A stretch of DNA of 64,000 nucleotides, taken from contig JAFGXQ010000114.1 in NCBI GenBank assembly GCA_016936575.1, forward strand, positions 1-64,000. The letters run 5' to 3'. Position numbers and translations under genes: made by a program. Origin of the DNA: Deltaproteobacteria bacterium (GTDB taxonomy: Bacteria; Myxococcota_A; Polyangia; JAAYKL01). Positions 19,255 to 50,179 of the stretch are shown here, one piece after another (positions within the stretch are counted from its first letter, which is position 1; the number at the start of each line of letters is the position of its first letter). The notes under the pieces are model-generated. The model was not told the DNA's origin, did not search any database, and saw only the letters and a list, made by a program, of their open reading frames with translations.

Positions 19255-20316
19255 ATGTTATTTGAAGGAAAGCATTTAATAGGCGTGGATATCGGAACCT
19301 CTTCAATCAAGGTTCTGCAAGTGCGCAAATCCGGCAAAGGTTACCATTTGCTGAAACATGGAATTGAAAAATTACCGCCTCAGTCCATTGTGGACGGCCA
19401 CGTGATGAACCACGGCGCAGTGGTGGATAGTTTGAAAAAATTGTTTCGGGATTTGAAGATTGCCCAGAAAGAAGTCGCACTGTCGATTTCAGGTAATTCC
19501 GTCATTATTAAAAAATTAAATCTGCCTCAGATGAAACCGGACGAACTGGAAGAACAGATTCAGTGGGAAGCGGAGCAGCATATTCCGTTTGATATTTCTG
19601 AAGTGGAGTTGGACTACAACATTTTAGCGTCGAATCCGGAAGCCGGCCAGATGGATGTGCTTCTGGTAGCTGCCAAAAAGGATGAAATTCAGGATTTGGT
19701 TGAAGTGGTAACCGAAGCCAGATTGCGCCCGGCGGTGGTCGACATCGATGCGTTCGCCATTCAGAATGTCTACGAGCTGAATTACGGATATTCCCCCAAC
19801 GAAACATTGGCGTTGCTGAATGTGGGGGCTGAAGTAACCACTATAAATATTGTTTGTGACGGCGTCTCTCAGTTTACCCGCGATATCTCAAACGGCGGGA
19901 ATATGATTACCGAGGAGATTCAGAAGCAGTTGCAGGTGAGTTACGAAGAAGCGGAAGCGTATAAGTCAGGGGGAGATGAAGGAACCAACGAGGTGGTTCC
20001 CCGCGAGGTGGATGAAATTGTAGGCAGTGTGGTGGATTCTTTGGCCGGAGAAATCCAACGATCGCTTGATTTTTATATGGCGACATCCAGTCGTGGAGAC
20101 GTGCAGAAAATTTTTGTTACGGGCGGCACCGCCAACATTCTGCAATTGCGTACGTCCATCGAACGGCGCTCCAGGGTTCCGGTGGAGCTTTTGGATCCGT
20201 TCCGGCGCGTGATGTATGACGAACGAAAATTTAATCCACAGGTGCTTAAGTCTCAAGCGCCGCAAGCATCAATCTGTTTGGGATTGGCGCTTCGAAAGCA
20301 AAAGGAGCGAATCTGA
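19255..20316 (+). CDS. pilM: Type IV pilus assembly protein PilM
   Basis: PilM is the actin-like cytoplasmic ring of the T4P inner-membrane alignment complex and binds the N-terminal tail of PilN. This 353-residue protein shows the ASKHA phosphate-1 motif GVDIGTSSIKVLQVR (about 10-24) and the family block KKLNLPQMKPDELEEQIQWE with EAEQHIPF. A later VTGGTANI (about 286) is the adenosine motif. The length is normal. The ATG directly follows the HTH stop codon, and the pilN ATG directly follows the pilM stop. Confidence 0.97.
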   Translation: MLFEGKHLIGVDIGTSSIKVLQVRKSGKGYHLLKHGIEKLPPQSIVDGHVMNHGAVVDSLKKLFRDLKIAQKEVALSISGNSVIIKKLNLPQMKPDELEEQIQWEAEQHIPFDISEVELDYNILASNPEAGQMDVLLVAAKKDEIQDLVEVVTEARLRPAVVDIDAFAIQNVYELNYGYSPNETLALLNVGAEVTTINIVCDGVSQFTRDISNGGNMITEEIQKQLQVSYEEAEAYKSGGDEGTNEVVPREVDEIVGSVVDSLAGEIQRSLDFYMATSSRGDVQKIFVTGGTANILQLRTSIERRSRVPVELLDPFRRVMYDERKFNPQVLKSQAPQASICLGLALRKQKERI

Positions 20317-20979
20317 ATGATCAGAATCAACCTTTTGCCGATCAAGCAAGACCGGCGTAAAGAAGCAGGGCGAAATCATCTGATTATCGGCGTACTCGTG
20401 ATCGTGGTGGAGCTTGTTGTGGCTTCGGTCATGAGTTTTAATCTCGACAACGAAATCGCAGAGCAGAAGAACGTGAACAGCTCATTGCAGGCGCAGATCA
20501 ATCGAATTCAGCAAAGCGTCGCGGGACATGACCAGATTCTGGCAGAGATTTCGGAGCATGAACAACGACAGAGTGCGATCGCAGAATTGCAGGCAGCTCG
20601 GACCGGCCCGGTTCAGGTGATGCTGGAGTTGTCACGGGTGTTGTCGAAAGACGGTAAGCCTACGATTCCCGATGCAGAGTATCAGGAGATCATTAAAAAG
20701 AATCCATCCCGGGGGTACGATGAAAACTGGGATTTCAGGCGGGTATGGCTGGAGAAATTTGAAGAGAAAGACAAGAACGTAACCATCCACGGGAAAGGTG
20801 TCAGTCATGAAGATGTGGCTGAATTTTTGCGTCGGATTAATTTGTCTTCCTTTTTTATTTCGAGTGAGTTGGTGTCTACAAAGTTGAGTAAGACGGGCAG
20901 CGGCGGCAGGGGGGCAGATAGCGTGAAAGCCATTGATGTGGTTTCATTCGAATTGGCCGGCAAGATAAGGTATCGATAA
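20317..20979 (+). CDS. pilN: Type IV pilus assembly protein PilN
   Basis: PilN is a bitopic inner-membrane protein linking PilM to PilO. It begins with the exact PilM-binding motif MIRINLLPIKQDRRKE. A single membrane helix follows (HLIIGVLVIVVELVVASVMS, about 25-44), then a periplasmic coiled coil (about 48-95) and a small ferredoxin-like domain (VTIHGKGVSHEDVAEFLRRI to the end). The 220-residue length is slightly above typical. It is 14 bp upstream of pilO. Confidence 0.96.
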   Translation: MIRINLLPIKQDRRKEAGRNHLIIGVLVIVVELVVASVMSFNLDNEIAEQKNVNSSLQAQINRIQQSVAGHDQILAEISEHEQRQSAIAELQAARTGPVQVMLELSRVLSKDGKPTIPDAEYQEIIKKNPSRGYDENWDFRRVWLEKFEEKDKNVTIHGKGVSHEDVAEFLRRINLSSFFISSELVSTKLSKTGSGGRGADSVKAIDVVSFELAGKIRYR

Positions 20980-20993
20980 GGGAGATATAAAGC

Positions 20994-21560
20994 ATGCTTG
21001 ACCAGTTTTTAAAGATGCCGATTGCCAAGAAAATTCTTGTGCTGGGGGTTGTGGTGGTGTTGGTCGGACTCGTTTTCTGGCAGTTCTATTATTCTCCGAG
21101 TTTGGATGAGCTTCAGGGTGTAAAAAAAGCACACACCCAGATGCAGTCGAAGCTCGCAGAAGCCCAGGCGCGAAAAAAAACCTACGATGAAGATGTGCAG
21201 CGGATGGAAGATTTGAAAATCGCCTCTGTGAAGCAGCGTCAGATGTTGCCGGTGGAGAGCGAAATGGCCTCTTTCCTGAATAATTTGAATTCAGTGGCGG
21301 AACTGACCGGTTTGGAAATACTTTCGGTGACGCCGATGGCGGAGGCGCCGGAAAAATATTATGCGACCATTCCGGTAAAATTGGAGCTTGAGGGAAGCTT
21401 TCTGCAACTGTCAAAATTCTTCTACCAGGTTGGAAAGTTGGATCGAATCATAAACATCGTCAACATCAGTTTTGATAAGCCGAAGATCAGTGAGAATGGT
21501 GCGGTGATGAAAGCCAGTGTGAGAGCGGTCACCTTCCGTTCTCTGGACAAGGCAAAATGA
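20994..21560 (+). CDS. pilO: Type IV pilus assembly protein PilO
   Basis: PilO pairs with PilN and connects to PilP in the periplasm. This 188-residue protein has a membrane helix (KKILVLGVVVVLVGLVFWQF, about 10-29), a coiled coil (about 38-80) and a ferredoxin-like domain, with LTGLEILSVTPM and IPVKLELEGSFLQLSKFF typical of PilO. GGGAGATA precedes the start. The stop overlaps the pilP start by 4 bp (ATGA). Confidence 0.96.
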   Translation: MLDQFLKMPIAKKILVLGVVVVLVGLVFWQFYYSPSLDELQGVKKAHTQMQSKLAEAQARKKTYDEDVQRMEDLKIASVKQRQMLPVESEMASFLNNLNSVAELTGLEILSVTPMAEAPEKYYATIPVKLELEGSFLQLSKFFYQVGKLDRIINIVNISFDKPKISENGAVMKASVRAVTFRSLDKAK

Positions 21561-22219
21561 TAGAGGAAAACATGCAAAATGCAGTCATAAAAAGAGGAAT
21601 GTTCATTCTTATACTCGCGCTTTGTATCGGTTTCCTGGCATGCGAAGAAGAACAGTCCAATCAGGATTTCAGAAGAGGAACAGGTACACCCATCGGCACA
21701 CCGTCACCCGAGGCGAAACAGGCGCTTGAGGCAAACGGGGCGGGGGCGGTTTTGAATGAAAATGAAGCGAAATCCAATGCGTCGATTCGTTCGCCGAAAA
21801 TTGCCGAAACAGATTTTATCGAGAGTATAAAGCGTAGAGATCCTTTTCGTCCATTTATCGAAGTGATCTTGCCCAAGCCCGAAGTTCATGAATCGATTCA
21901 GCGTGAGATCAAGCTCGAAGAATACGATATTGAGCAACTTCGGCTCATCGCCATTATCACAAACGTCGGTGATCCCCGCGCGATGGTGGTACCCCCCAAT
22001 AACGAAGGCTTCATTCTTCGTCGCGGCGACTATGTTGGAAAAGCCGATTATATAGATCCGGGAAATGGCGCGGAACGAATTCAGATTAACTGGAAGGTTC
22101 ATCGCATTCACGGTTCCGGTGCCAAAGAAGAGCGAGGCATATACCTGGTTCGCGATGATCCGCTAACCCCAACACCCGATGATGTAACCCGTTTTATGCC
22201 GCTGTATCCGCAAGATTAG
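21557..22219 (+). CDS. pilP: Type IV pilus lipoprotein PilP
   Basis: PilP is an inner-membrane lipoprotein that bridges PilNO to the PilQ secretin. The 220-residue product has a lipoprotein signal (MFILILALCIGFLAC), an unstructured linker (about 35-80) and a C-terminal beta domain with the family block RRDPFRPF, YDIEQLRLIAIITNVGDPRAM and FILRRGDYVG. An ATG at 21572 with a good AGAGG ribosome-binding site is an alternative start that trims five residues. A 141-bp spacer separates it from pilQ. Confidence 0.95.
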   Translation: MIEENMQNAVIKRGMFILILALCIGFLACEEEQSNQDFRRGTGTPIGTPSPEAKQALEANGAGAVLNENEAKSNASIRSPKIAETDFIESIKRRDPFRPFIEVILPKPEVHESIQREIKLEEYDIEQLRLIAIITNVGDPRAMVVPPNNEGFILRRGDYVGKADYIDPGNGAERIQINWKVHRIHGSGAKEERGIYLVRDDPLTPTPDDVTRFMPLYPQD

Positions 22220-22360: not shown

Positions 22361-25300
22361 ATGAATAAGTCCCGAATCACACAAACCAGAATGTTAAAAG
22401 CGTTGTTTGTTGCGCTTGTGGTGGTCGTTTGCGCCGGCACCACAACTGCGGCAGCTCCCAAAAAGATGAATACGATCCACGCAGTGGACGTATCTCAACG
22501 GGGTGGCCAGACGGTGATCACGGTAAAAGGGTCAAGTCGACCTATGTATACCGCGTTCAAATTGTCGACGCCCAAGCGGCTGGTGCTGGATTTGGCGAAC
22601 AGCTCGCTGAAGGGGGTACCTGCACTGCTTGAAAAATCGACGAACCTGGTTGGGGGGGTTGCGGTATCGGAATTCACGACCGGGAAAGTTCGAGTGAGTC
22701 GGGTAATGATTAATTTTAAGAAGGAAGCTTCTTATCGGGTGAAGGTGAAAGGAAACTCGCTTGTGGTCACTCTGAGCGGTGGCCCGGCTGCGAAAGAGGC
22801 GGCTCCCGAGGAGAATGCTCCCGGTGAACAGGTGATTTCTCTCGCCAATGCGGAAGAGCGCATTGATGCGGTGCAGAAATCTGCGGATGAGCGGGTGCAA
22901 AAAGCAGAAAAGGAAGCCCAAAAAGAAGTGGTTCAGGCGCGACTGGAAGCGGCTGCCGCGAAAAAAGAGGCGAACAACGCGAAAGCCGAAATTTCGAAGG
23001 CTCAAAAAGAGGTCGAACAAGCACAGGCCGGGGCTTCCGAAGCGGAAGTGAAGTGGCGAATGGCGCGCGCTGAAATCAATAAACTGAAAGCCAAGCAGGC
23101 GCATTACGATTCGAAATTGGAGCAGGCTCAAAAAGAGGCGGACGCCGCGCAAAAAGAGCTGGTTCGGTTGCAGAGAGCGCAACAGCAGAATTCGAAAGAC
23201 AGTAATGACACTTTGTCGCGATTTGAAGCGGATGCCGCCAGACAGATTGCCACTCTTACGCGCAAAGTAAGAGACGCGCAAAAAGCGGCCGAGGCAGATC
23301 AGAAAGAAAGAAATCGCCTTGAAAAACGACTTTCGGCGCTGAAATCAGAGCTTGAACAATCGAAACGAGAAGCTGCTGCGGCAAATCGTGCGAAAGAAGC
23401 GGCGCAGGCTGATGTGAACGTAATGAAGTCAAGTGTTAGAGAGGCATTTCTTGAGAAAGAGGCAGCAAAAAAAGAAGCAAAATCTGCCAGGGATGCTCAA
23501 CGGGAAGCCGAGGCTGCGTATCGGGCTGCCGGAGAGAAAGATCGAAATGCGCTGTATAGCAAGTTGCAGCAGCGCCAGCGCGAAACTGTAGAAGCCAAAA
23601 AACGGTACGCAAGTGCTGAAAAGCAGTTCGCTGAAATAGATGAAAAACTGGAACAGACGATGGCGGCGCTGCGCGTCGCAGAAAAACAAAGCAAACGCGC
23701 TCAGCAGGCGAAGGCTGATGCCGAAAAAAACGCGGCTAAGCAACAGGCTGCCTATGAAAAGCAATTGGCAACCCTTAGCAGTGAAGTGGCACGTGCGGAG
23801 TCGGAAGCGCGCCAGGCCAAGTTGGAAAAAGAGCGGGCCGTTGCATCGCTGGAAACGGAAAAAGCGCGCGTGGTGCGTGAATCGGAAAAACTGAAGAAAG
23901 AAGCGGCTGCAAAAATGAAAGCGGCCGAAGAACGAGTACAGCGCGCTGAAGTTGCTGAGAAGGAAGCCAAATCAAAAACCAAAGGGGTGATGGCGAAAAT
24001 TCACGATGTGGAATCGCGTCTGCAGGACGCCAACCAGACGATTCTGTCGCAAAAAGAGTTGATTGCAACACTGCAGAAGAAGGCGGATGAAGCGGCAGAG
24101 CAGGCCAAGGCCGCGGAAGCGGAAAAAGAAAACGCGTTGCGACGTGCGAAAGATGCGGCCAAGCAGGCTGACGCCGAACGTGCGAGCGCGGAGAAACGTG
24201 CTGAAGACGCTCGCAAAGAGGCTGATGCCGCCATTCTGGCGCAGGAAAAAATGGCCAAACAGATGAGCGAAAAGAAGGGGGCTGCCCCGGAGGTTTCAAG
24301 TGAATCTGCAACTGCTCCGAAACGGGAGAAATTGACGCAGGAAGAACTTCGCATGCAGCGTTTGGCGCAGCTTCAGGAAAAGAAGAACGGTAAGGGTGCA
24401 GCAGTTGCCGCGAAAGTGGCGCCGCTCGCGGTAGAGAGTGAGCCGGCTGTATCTGAAAAAGGGAACGAAAACGCTGCCAACGCGATTCAAGATATCAAGT
24501 TCGTGAACAAGGGGGCAAGCCAGAAAGTGGTGATCAGCGGCAGCGGTGAGTTCAAATATTCGAAGTCGGAAGGAAACAACCGAACCGTTGTGATGGAGTT
24601 TTCGGATGCCCGATTGTTGCCCATGCTGGAACGCACCTTGGATGTGCGGGATTTCGGCGGCGTGATCAGTTCTATCAGTTCTTATCGCGAGAACGGCAAA
24701 GTGAAAGTCGAAGTGAAGTTGGGACGATTCGCGAAAAACAAAGTGTCTGTACGAGACGGTGTCATCGAATGGTCGTTCATTGATACCCAGACAGAAACCA
24801 AAGAGACCGTTCAGCCGCTCGGCTCGTCGACGCGGGTGGTTCATCGCGAAAATGATGAGTCCTACGGGTATCCGACGGAGCGTACCGCCGCGTATTCGGT
24901 GACGCTGGCGGATTTGTCACAGCGAAAAGAGAAGTATACGGGGCGCAGAATTGATTTGGATTTCAAGAGCGCTGACATTCACAATATTCTTCGTCTGCTG
25001 GCAGATGTGGGGCATGTGAATATCATCACTTCAAACGATGTGAGCGGGTCGGTGACGATTCGGATGCGTGATGTACCTTGGGATCAGGCACTGGATGTGA
25101 TTCTGCAGACCAAAGGGCTTGGTAAAGTACGACAGGGAAATCTGATTCGCGTGGCGCCTCTTGCCGTGCTGGAAGCGGAATACGAAAAAGCCATTGAGCG
25201 GATCAAAATGAGTAAGGAGCTCAAACCGCTTGAAACACGGTTGATACCCGTATCGTATGCGACAGCTGGGGAGTTGATGCCCCGTGCGAATGATTTGCTG

Positions 25301-26236
25301 ACCGACCGCGGAAAACTGTCGGTGGATAACCGCACGAATGTGATTATTGCTCGTGATGTTCCTGAGGTATTGGACCAGATTGAAGCGTTGATTCGAAATC
25401 TGGACACCCAGACCCCTCAGGTGCTGATTGAGGGACGAATTGTGGAAGCCACCAGTACCTACGCCCGTGAAATCGGTATTCAGTGGGGCGGTGATTTCTC
25501 GGCGAGCGCGGCAACCGGTAACCCGACAGGGCTGGCTTTCCCCAGTACCGTGGGTGTTGCCGGTGGTGCCACGGACAGCAATGCGCCGCTGGCCGGACTG
25601 ACACCCGTTTCGGGGGGGCAACCCAATCCGAATTTCGCGGTGAATCTGCCGGCGGCAACCGGTACCGGATCCGGTGGTGCGCTAGGCATATCGTTGGGTT
25701 CCATTGCGAATAACGCCAATCTCAATCTGCGGCTGAGTGCCATGGAGGAAGAGGGAACCTTGCGGATTCTGAGTTCCCCCAAAATTTTGACACTCGACAA
25801 CCGGGAAGCGCATATTGAGCAGGGTACCATGATCCCGTACAGCCGGGTTTCGGCCAGCGGTGTTCAGACATCGTTTAAAGAAGCCAAGCTGAATCTCACG
25901 GTGACTCCGCATGTGACCGCGGACGGGTCTATTTTGCTGGCCATCAACATGACGCGGGATGAACCGGACTTCAATAACAAAGGCGCCCGAGGCGATCCTA
26001 CCATTCTGAAGCGCGAAGCCAAAACGGAGCTGCTCGTGAACGATGGTCATACAGCGGTAATCGGCGGTATCTTTACGAGAAACCACGGTCGCAGTTACAA
26101 GAAGGTTCCGTTCTTCGGTGATATTCCAATCCTGGGATGGCTGTTCAAGTCCCGTTCGGATTCGGATAGACGTTCGGAAATGCTGATTTTCATTACTCCG
26201 ACCATCGTCAATCGCGCGGAGAGCATTGGCCAGTAG
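22361..26236 (+). CDS. pilQ: Type IV pilus secretin PilQ with a giant coiled-coil insertion
   Basis: PilQ forms the outer-membrane channel of the type IV pilus. This 1291-residue version has a signal peptide (1-31), an AMIN domain (about 35-140), then a charged coiled coil of Ala, Glu, Lys and Gln (about 157-640) with no Cys or Pro, a linker, a second AMIN-like domain (about 705-810), a secretin/TonB short N-terminal domain (IDLDFKSADIHNILRLLADV, about 864-930), an N1/NolW-like domain (about 957-1018) and the secretin core (QVLIEGRIVEATSTYAREIG to FFGDIPILGWLFKSR). The channel part is normal. The coiled coil has no counterpart in the PilQ proteins I know (about 700-900 residues). AAGGAG precedes the ATG. 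Confidence 0.95.
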   Translation: MNKSRITQTRMLKALFVALVVVVCAGTTTAAAPKKMNTIHAVDVSQRGGQTVITVKGSSRPMYTAFKLSTPKRLVLDLANSSLKGVPALLEKSTNLVGGVAVSEFTTGKVRVSRVMINFKKEASYRVKVKGNSLVVTLSGGPAAKEAAPEENAPGEQVISLANAEERIDAVQKSADERVQKAEKEAQKEVVQARLEAAAAKKEANNAKAEISKAQKEVEQAQAGASEAEVKWRMARAEINKLKAKQAHYDSKLEQAQKEADAAQKELVRLQRAQQQNSKDSNDTLSRFEADAARQIATLTRKVRDAQKAAEADQKERNRLEKRLSALKSELEQSKREAAAANRAKEAAQADVNVMKSSVREAFLEKEAAKKEAKSARDAQREAEAAYRAAGEKDRNALYSKLQQRQRETVEAKKRYASAEKQFAEIDEKLEQTMAALRVAEKQSKRAQQAKADAEKNAAKQQAAYEKQLATLSSEVARAESEARQAKLEKERAVASLETEKARVVRESEKLKKEAAAKMKAAEERVQRAEVAEKEAKSKTKGVMAKIHDVESRLQDANQTILSQKELIATLQKKADEAAEQAKAAEAEKENALRRAKDAAKQADAERASAEKRAEDARKEADAAILAQEKMAKQMSEKKGAAPEVSSESATAPKREKLTQEELRMQRLAQLQEKKNGKGAAVAAKVAPLAVESEPAVSEKGNENAANAIQDIKFVNKGASQKVVISGSGEFKYSKSEGNNRTVVMEFSDARLLPMLERTLDVRDFGGVISSISSYRENGKVKVEVKLGRFAKNKVSVRDGVIEWSFIDTQTETKETVQPLGSSTRVVHRENDESYGYPTERTAAYSVTLADLSQRKEKYTGRRIDLDFKSADIHNILRLLADVGHVNIITSNDVSGSVTIRMRDVPWDQALDVILQTKGLGKVRQGNLIRVAPLAVLEAEYEKAIERIKMSKELKPLETRLIPVSYATAGELMPRANDLLTDRGKLSVDNRTNVIIARDVPEVLDQIEALIRNLDTQTPQVLIEGRIVEATSTYAREIGIQWGGDFSASAATGNPTGLAFPSTVGVAGGATDSNAPLAGLTPVSGGQPNPNFAVNLPAATGTGSGGALGISLGSIANNANLNLRLSAMEEEGTLRILSSPKILTLDNREAHIEQGTMIPYSRVSASGVQTSFKEAKLNLTVTPHVTADGSILLAINMTRDEPDFNNKGARGDPTILKREAKTELLVNDGHTAVIGGIFTRNHGRSYKKVPFFGDIPILGWLFKSRSDSDRRSEMLIFITPTIVNRAESIGQ

Positions 26237-48676: not shown

Positions 48677-50179
48677 ATGATCAGAAATGTAAATCTGTTT
48701 ATTCTTGGATTGCTGCTGGTGACTGTAGGGGCGATATTGCGACACCAGGACGCCATCGGATTGCCGCGCCTGCTGGCCCATCTCCCGACGCTTCCGGGCG
48801 TGATGCTGAACCCGAAAAGTTGGGTAATTGCGGGCGGTGTTTGTATTTTGATCAGCATGGTGGCGGGTGTGAAACTGTCGGGTCGGCGCAAGCGTAAACG
48901 CGACCAGTTTGAGCCGGTGTCCATTGAGCGAATCGGCGGTCAGATTACCGAATGGAGTCTGGAAGCGGAGCCTGATATTCCGTTGATCGTCGACTATATC
49001 GTTTATCAGGCCATCAAACAGCGGGCGTCGGATATTCATTTTGATCCGGGGCAGTCGGGGATGGCGGTGAAATATCGATTGCAGGGAATGATGAAATCGG
49101 TGGCGGTGGTGGACAAACGCGTATGCAGCGCAATCGTCAATCGGCTCAAGGTGTTGTCCAATCTGGTGATATACAAAGATCATGTTCCCCAGGACGGGCG
49201 GTTTGATCGTAACTCCGGTGAGGCGGTTCAGGCGGCGCAGCTGCAGAGATCCGGGCTTTCAAAAACCGATTTTCGTATTGCATTCATGCCCACGCTGCAC
49301 GGGGAGCGAATCGTGATTCGCATTCTGGGCGCACGGGACGAGGATTCGAATCTGGCATCGCTGGGGATGGATTCTCACGAGCTGACAATGATTCGCAGAC
49401 TGGTGGCGCAGCCCCAGGGGATGATTATTCTTACCGGACCCACCGGTTCGGGGAAAACGACAACCATTTTTGCCGCATTGAATGAGATTCTGGAGCAATC
49501 ACACCGGAAGCGATCGATTGCCACGCTGGAAGATCCGATTGAGTTTGACGCGCCTGATATTAATCAGTCCCAGGTGGATGAAACACGGAATTTTACATTC
49601 GAGAAAGGCTTGCGCGCGATTTTGCGTCAGGATCCCGACGTAATTATGGTGGGCGAAATCCGAGATGGAGAGACGGCGAAAATCGCGATTCAGGCCGGAA
49701 TGACCGGACATTTGCTCATTACCACCGTGCACGCCAATACCAGCGCTGCGGCGTTTTCGCGACTGGCGGAAATGGGAATTCCGGCATATTCACTGAATTC
49801 AGCGGTGACCGCGGTAATCGCGCAGCGACTGGTGCGTAACATCTGTCCCCACTGCAAAACGACGCGCGAGTTTACGGATGGGGATTTGCATATGCTGGGG
49901 GTGGATATACCGCCGGTGGGGCTGCAACTGCATACCGGAAGCGGTTGCCCAGAGTGCGAACACAGCGGATACAAAGGACGGACAGCGATTTTTGAAATTC
50001 TGGAAGTGAATGAATCGATTCGCAAATTGATTTCGCAGCAGGCCGGGAGCGAAGAAATATATCAGTTTGCTCGCAAACAGGGGCTTCGAACGCTATGGGA
50101 AACCGGTATTGACGCGGTCCAGCAGGGGATAACCACCCTTGAAGAAGTGGACAGGACAATCGCTTCGACCATGCGGTAG
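48677..50179 (+). CDS. Membrane-anchored PilB/GspE-family secretion ATPase
   Basis: This 500-residue ATPase belongs to the T4P/type II secretion family. Instead of the usual N-terminal MSHEN/N1 domain it starts with two hydrophobic segments (about 5-21 and 48-66) and a basic stop (GRRKRKRDQ), so it seems inserted in the inner membrane. The core is intact: N2-like ASDIHFDPGQ, Walker A GPTGSGKTT (about 253-261), Asp box ATLEDPIE, Walker B IMVGEIRD, His box GHLLITTVHANTS, and a zinc module with CPHC and CPEC. It may drive a second pilus-like or motility machine. It is not beside the pilMNOPQ genes. Confidence 0.94.
   Translation: MIRNVNLFILGLLLVTVGAILRHQDAIGLPRLLAHLPTLPGVMLNPKSWVIAGGVCILISMVAGVKLSGRRKRKRDQFEPVSIERIGGQITEWSLEAEPDIPLIVDYIVYQAIKQRASDIHFDPGQSGMAVKYRLQGMMKSVAVVDKRVCSAIVNRLKVLSNLVIYKDHVPQDGRFDRNSGEAVQAAQLQRSGLSKTDFRIAFMPTLHGERIVIRILGARDEDSNLASLGMDSHELTMIRRLVAQPQGMIILTGPTGSGKTTTIFAALNEILEQSHRKRSIATLEDPIEFDAPDINQSQVDETRNFTFEKGLRAILRQDPDVIMVGEIRDGETAKIAIQAGMTGHLLITTVHANTSAAAFSRLAEMGIPAYSLNSAVTAVIAQRLVRNICPHCKTTREFTDGDLHMLGVDIPPVGLQLHTGSGCPECEHSGYKGRTAIFEILEVNESIRKLISQQAGSEEIYQFARKQGLRTLWETGIDAVQQGITTLEEVDRTIASTMR

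Follow-up and report, generated by a model that had tools for sequence, protein, structure and literature searches.

A long helical rod between the two AMIN domains of the type IVa pilus secretin PilQ in Myxococcota

The pilQ operon and the domain organization of PilQ

The window, that is, the whole 64,000-nucleotide stretch of DNA analysed here, lies on contig C227 of a MAG that comprises 252 contigs and 5.9 Mb. It contains a pilQ gene with pilM, pilN, pilO and pilP immediately upstream, in the order pilMNOPQ. The genes of the operon and the features encoded within pilQ are as follows.

19255..20316, + strand: pilM (TIGR01175, 268 bits)
20317..20979, + strand: pilN (PF05137)
20994..21560, + strand: pilO (PF04350)
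21557..22219, + strand: pilP (PF04351, 21.6 bits, below the cut-off of 25.6; E = 2.3e-4, together with the operon position)
22361..26236, + strand: pilQ, type IVa pilus secretin, 1291 aa (TIGR02515, 439 bits over residues 861–1284)
22361..22453, + strand: predicted signal peptide, residues 1–31 (read off the sequence: K/R-rich start, hydrophobic core, AAA before residue 32)
22484..22774, + strand: AMIN domain 1, residues 42–138 (PF11741, E = 2e-10; AlphaFold2 beta sandwich, pLDDT 90–96)
22856..23527, + strand: predicted helix 1 of the hairpin in the insert, residues 166–389, 224 aa, about 34 nm (AlphaFold2, pLDDT mostly 83–92)
23516..23563, + strand: putative turn motif AYRAAGEKDRNALYSK, residues 386–401 (AlphaFold2 break at 390–391; situated where the helical insert is best conserved in the family)
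23534..24259, + strand: predicted helix 2 of the hairpin, residues 392–633, 242 aa, about 36 nm (AlphaFold2 model)
24287..24490, + strand: Pro-containing, low-confidence linker with a conserved TQEELRMQRLA helix ahead of AMIN domain 2
24491..24754, + strand: AMIN domain 2, residues 711–798 (PF11741, E = 9.8e-9)
24956..25159, + strand: N0/STN domain, residues 866–933 (PF07660)
25235..25420, + strand: short Secretin_N domain, residues 959–1020 (PF03958)
25739..26209, + strand: secretin domain, residues 1127–1283 (PF00263, E = 1.4e-49)

The PilQ core scores 439.4 bits against the curated TIGR02515 cut-off of 284.35, with the full profile (1–428) matched, and the two PF11741 matches, both above the Pfam cut-off, are situated N-terminal to N0. 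Together with the N0, Secretin_N and secretin domains and the pilMNOP genes upstream, these matches confirm the identification made in the preliminary description and mark the protein as a genuine PilQ of the type IVa pilus. The PilQ proteins of Myxococcus xanthus, Pseudomonas aeruginosa, Vibrio cholerae and Neisseria possess the same order of AMIN(s), N0, Secretin_N and secretin domains and the same pilMNOPQ operon; unlike the window PilQ, however, no rod of 300–1350 residues has been described in any of the four.

Several partners of the pilus machine are encoded elsewhere in the genome. PilB is present above its cut-off (1e-243). A TsaP homologue of 424 aa, with a LysM domain at residues 119–165, is located on contig C28 and matches Myxococcus xanthus TsaP (3jc8_Ta) with an E value of 2.3e-47. 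The insert between the AMIN domains had been proposed to replace TsaP, and this proposal is rejected because the homologue exists in the same genome; the insert would add to TsaP instead. In a search covering the window's genome, with the insert-lacking relatives outside it, the FimV core was not found. Many TPR proteins are encoded; the TIGR02521 matches sought as a Tgl-like TPR pilotin are all sub-threshold, with none above the PilF/PilW cut-off, and the Tgl search also gave a lipoprotein candidate of 260 aa (L187:1369–2151). In addition, a second PilB/GspE-type ATPase lies in the window at 48959–50158 (E = 5.6e-125) and probably belongs to another secretion or pilus system.

Composition and periodicity of the insert

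Between AMIN1 and AMIN2, residues 155–642 of the window PilQ constitute a 488-residue run without Pro or Cys; a Pro-free run of this length has a chance of about 2e-10 at 4.5% Pro. The almost unbroken helix pattern reported for residues 157–640 is exact in its coordinates and lies inside this run. The sole Cys of the protein is residue 24, inside the signal peptide, and only five Gly residues occur in the Pro-free run (155, 224, 391, 542 and 640). The insert is composed of 24% A, 14% E, 14% K, 9% Q and 8% R. Its hydrophobic periodicity peaks at 3.53 residues, a peak reached by none of 1000 shuffles, which upholds the earlier view of a genuine insert of the coiled-coil type; the heptad signal of its initial 126 residues taken alone is not significant. 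A disordered insert, raised earlier as the opposite outcome, is contradicted by this heptad periodicity and by the confident helical model described below. At the DNA level, no tandem array beyond trivial 9–10-mers was detected in the window itself, and a tandem-repeat origin of its insert was rejected.

Predicted fold of the rod

For AlphaFold2 (AF2), residues 39–867 of the window PilQ were modelled with an alignment of 26 sequences. The model consists of two AMIN sandwiches and two long helices, with the pLDDT of the rod mostly at 83–93 and the Pro-containing linkers at low confidence. The helix break at 390–391 (Gly391) coincides with the midpoint of the insert and lies within its most conserved motif; conservation of the helical region in the family peaks at about residue 379, with high positions extending over 373–412. 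Outside the window's family, an HMM search for the turn motif returned only the scores that any coiled coil would give, at scattered positions. The pTM values were low (0.31 and 0.36), so the models do not define how the AMIN domains are positioned against the rod.

Measured from the turn motif, the lengths of the N- and C-terminal arms are correlated with r = 0.94 and a slope of 1.00 in nine of the 11 family members (permutation p = 1.5e-4, calculated with kinship ignored). Such 1:1 co-variation implies an antiparallel hairpin of about 34–36 nm, a length given by 224–242 residues at 0.15 nm each. Compared with the window protein, the arms of L036 are longer by 40 and 55 residues, and those of L044 are shorter by 31 and 33. 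The genus g2 (L038 and L045) is off this symmetry, with an N arm of about 190 and a C arm of 470–530 residues. In a Foldseek search, the rod model matched the middle fragment of an SMC protein (5nnv) with a TM score of 0.75 on the target, and also a chemoreceptor hairpin (2ch7), Rad50, PrgA and the MukB elbow. The antiparallel pairing was read from the helix lengths, the turn, the arm co-variation and these matches, which together make it likely that the rod in the window's family is an intramolecular antiparallel hairpin of this length. The preliminary description had allowed that the insert may fold back, and the AF2 turn and the co-varying arms bear this out; its straight coil of about 70 nm does not survive as the likely form, given that the AF2 helix breaks at Gly391 into two arms.

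In the case of a second, Bradymonadia-like class (16 sequences), AF2 predicts three helices of 57, 151 and 145 residues with breaks at conserved Gly motifs (ASGE and KGNE). The arm co-variation is weak here (r = 0.25–0.54), and the model matches a coiled-coil segment of SMC (5xg2, TM 0.63). The rod of this class is thus predicted to be a three-helix zigzag with a small net reach. In both classes, the predicted fold brings the ends of the rod back close together, which would resolve how a 70-nm coil is accommodated in a narrow periplasm.

Distribution of the insert among relatives

PilQ cores were used to find relatives in 59 related genomes, in 63 loci belonging to named MAGs and in 334 genomes from the phylum, and full-length PilQ was rebuilt from the loci before the insert was measured. 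Altogether, 73 distinct PilQ proteins, spanning at least two classes of Myxococcota, have an insert of 293–1356 aa (median 536) at the same AMIN1/AMIN2 site; in L114, L117 and L118, where AMIN2 is too diverged for the profile, its far end was placed from the PilQ core. In the window's family, all 10 full-length relatives carry it (426–766 aa), each in an independent assembly. The single-contig genome G065 (5,045,683 bp) encodes a 293-aa insert at locus L152, and G193 (8,047,206 bp) one of 401 aa. Because the same architecture recurs across numerous independent assemblies, among them single-contig genomes (G065, for example), a misassembly or a coiled-coil gene fused to pilQ, conceivable for a MAG of 252 contigs, is already refuted. 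The longest open frames, 2255 and 2298 aa, were found in family f31 (G063:C42 and G101:C91), and the usual PilQ length of 700–900 residues, as given earlier, fails in Myxococcota. Among 119 genomes of Acidobacteriota, 97 possess PilQ, with frames nearly all of 450–1100 aa and a maximum of 1197. Two further PilQ frames (G171:C37 and G088:C113) contain one in-frame stop each, TAA and TGA, respectively, reflecting a pseudogene, a frameshift or an assembly error.

Polyangiaceae-type and some other families encode PilQ without the insert. Within the same class, it is missing from an extensive clade (f11, f14, f21 and f22; PilQ of about 550–900 aa), in which f11 includes 13-Mb genomes; f5 and L076–L078 lack it as well. 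On a quick maximum-likelihood tree built from 126 PilQ cores, where a few short entries (L066 and L120) may represent gene fragments or disrupted genes, insert presence needs six state changes, compared with an average of 40.7 in 500 shuffles. An early origin in Myxococcota, with later loss in several families, is the most probable history of the insert; since the root of the core tree is weak, repeated gains may instead explain its distribution.

Evolution of the rod

In most lineages, the rod shows a periodicity of 3.5 residues, with z values up to 30, and the rods there are hence coiled coils. Between close relatives in these lineages, 19 of 30 indels are multiples of seven (1 in 7 expected; binomial 1e-9), a figure to be read with the non-independence of the pairs and the tendency of heptad alignment itself to favour such gaps. 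The corresponding number is 5 of 28 in the lineage resembling a single helix and its nearest relatives. This lineage comprises L052, L055, L058, L064 and L094, fen MAGs of a family near f4. Its rods contain only 6–9% hydrophobic residues (ILVFMYW), display no heptad peak and are enriched 1.9–2.5-fold over expectation in E-to-K/R pairs at i+4; those of L058 and L064 also contain a 9-residue repeat. Judged by sequence, the rod of these five resembles an ER/K single alpha-helix, and the lineage appears to have naturally exchanged a coiled coil for a rod of the single-alpha-helix type at the same site.

The length of the rod changes by other routes as well. In genus g2, the C-terminal arm grows one-sidedly via 21-aa (three-heptad) repeats, with L038 and L045 one 63-residue indel apart. 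In L161, the 721-aa insert carries a strong internal repeat of 103 residues, with 54% identity at lag 103. Many rods are basic, with net charges up to +185; the strongly basic inserts of L109, L150 and L118 (+185, +184 and +157) might bind wall polymers or DNA. Sequence turnover is rapid, the window protein and L036 being 55% identical in the insert and 95% in the PilQ core. Selection would keep a stiff helical rod and leave length and sequence free to vary. The variable length and the switch to the single-helix type argue for stiffness and bulk, and against a ruler or a specific binding surface.

Possible role of the rod in the pilus machine

The window PilQ runs from the signal peptide through AMIN1, the long helical rod, AMIN2, N0 and Secretin_N to the secretin domain, and its proposed arrangement is as follows. 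In this family, the rod would fold as an intramolecular antiparallel coiled-coil hairpin that turns back at the conserved motif AYRAAGEKDRNALY, a fold that is predicted to set AMIN1 and AMIN2 side by side at the rod base. Every subunit of the secretin ring would carry one such stiff rod, which would extend into the periplasm from the AMIN ring on the cell wall. With two AMIN domains holding its base, the rod would be in a good position to spread pulling force or to space the layers of the envelope. As a strut or outrigger, it may brace the pilus machine in the wall, spread the pulling force and space the outer membrane, the wall and the inner-membrane complex, and it would complement TsaP. The strut or outrigger role is tentative, falling somewhat short of an even chance. 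The whole explanation, a bona fide PilQ with a hairpin rod, a strut role and an old insert with losses, is assigned a probability of about 0.5. The longest inserts count against it, for 1356 aa as a single hairpin would measure 100 nm unless folded several times.

Alternatively, the insert could be a straight tether, a long helix or parallel coil holding AMIN1 on the peptidoglycan tens of nanometres from the secretin, comparable to the stalk of SlpA or OmpM. A peptidoglycan-binding domain at one end and an outer-membrane channel at the other are also found in Deinococcus SlpA (PMC9388160), and the lineage resembling a single alpha-helix, with its few hydrophobic residues and its E-to-K pairs at i+4, suits an unpaired straight helix. 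However, the turn predicted at a conserved motif and the 1:1 arm co-variation in the window's family are at odds with a tether, inserts of 1356 aa would reach 200 nm when straight, and the second AMIN domain holds the secretin itself near the wall, leaving this alternative unlikely.

The 12–15 hairpins of a ring might also stand side by side as a periplasmic cage or tube directed towards the PilNOP ring. HlyD/MacA adaptor proteins form such hairpin barrels from antiparallel helical hairpins with a tip, and a hairpin between two small beta domains, the symmetry of the secretin ring and the conserved tip agree with an arrangement of this kind, but rods varying over 293–1356 aa, and almost devoid of hydrophobic residues in one lineage, fit a barrel poorly and render it distinctly improbable. 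A large extra periplasmic structure in much of the Myxococcota, a cage or crown of spokes around the machine that is formed by 12–15 hairpins per ring, anchored to the wall at their base by the AMIN pairs and touching another envelope component with their tip, is doubtful. If true, it would add to the type IV pilus machine a layer not seen before, with its size tuned in each lineage through the addition of heptads.

The rod might finally be a tolerated filler, a low-complexity helix whose length changes by repeat slippage and whose only role is solubility. Its fast evolution relative to the core, the internal repeats of 21 and 103 aa and the loss of the insert in several families would be in keeping with this, but the exclusion of Pro and the heptad register are maintained across hundreds of residues, the arms are equal, the turn is conserved and most of the core tree carries the insert; a filler is accordingly a poor candidate, with very little probability left to it.

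Comparison with known systems and significance

In M. xanthus, AMIN domains bind peptidoglycan and recruit PilQ, with flexible linkers between the AMIN domains (PMC10653833), and a survey of type IVa pilus secretins recorded only 0–3 AMIN repeats ahead of N0 (PMC7545093). The combination of a wall-binding domain, a long periplasmic coiled coil and an outer-membrane barrel in one protein is shared with SlpA, OmpM and Omp-alpha, the trimeric coil of Deinococcus SlpA being about 28 nm long (PMC9388160). Those proteins, however, utilize a parallel homotrimeric coil, an SLH domain and a porin-like barrel, whereas the rod of the window PilQ is a predicted intramolecular hairpin with AMIN domains on both sides; no SLH domain was matched in the window PilQ, and a secretin domain takes the place of the porin, which sets it apart from SlpA-type connectors. 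SMC/Rad50 arms, PrgA and chemoreceptors possess an antiparallel helical hairpin with a tip, like the rod predicted here (Foldseek), but their host proteins and locations differ, and the likeness is structural, with sequence kinship unclaimed. TsaP is likewise a peptidoglycan-linked partner of PilQ, but it is a separate LysM protein encoded in the same genome.

Full-text searches of the open-access literature found no description of a coiled-coil or helical insert in any PilQ. As far as that literature extends, a long helical rod in a pilus secretin, with its predicted fold-back hairpin architecture, could not be found described and appears new among pilus rings. For type IVa pili, the reference architecture is that of the M. 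xanthus machine, yet the secretin of many of its relatives bears this undescribed rod, and PilQ domain surveys built on Proteobacteria and a few models overlook major variation. The natural length series, from 293 to 1356 aa with losses in sister families, offers a ready-made experiment on force transfer. If the rod is a brace or a cage, it would bear on how the pulling force of the pilus is transferred to the cell wall in these bacteria.
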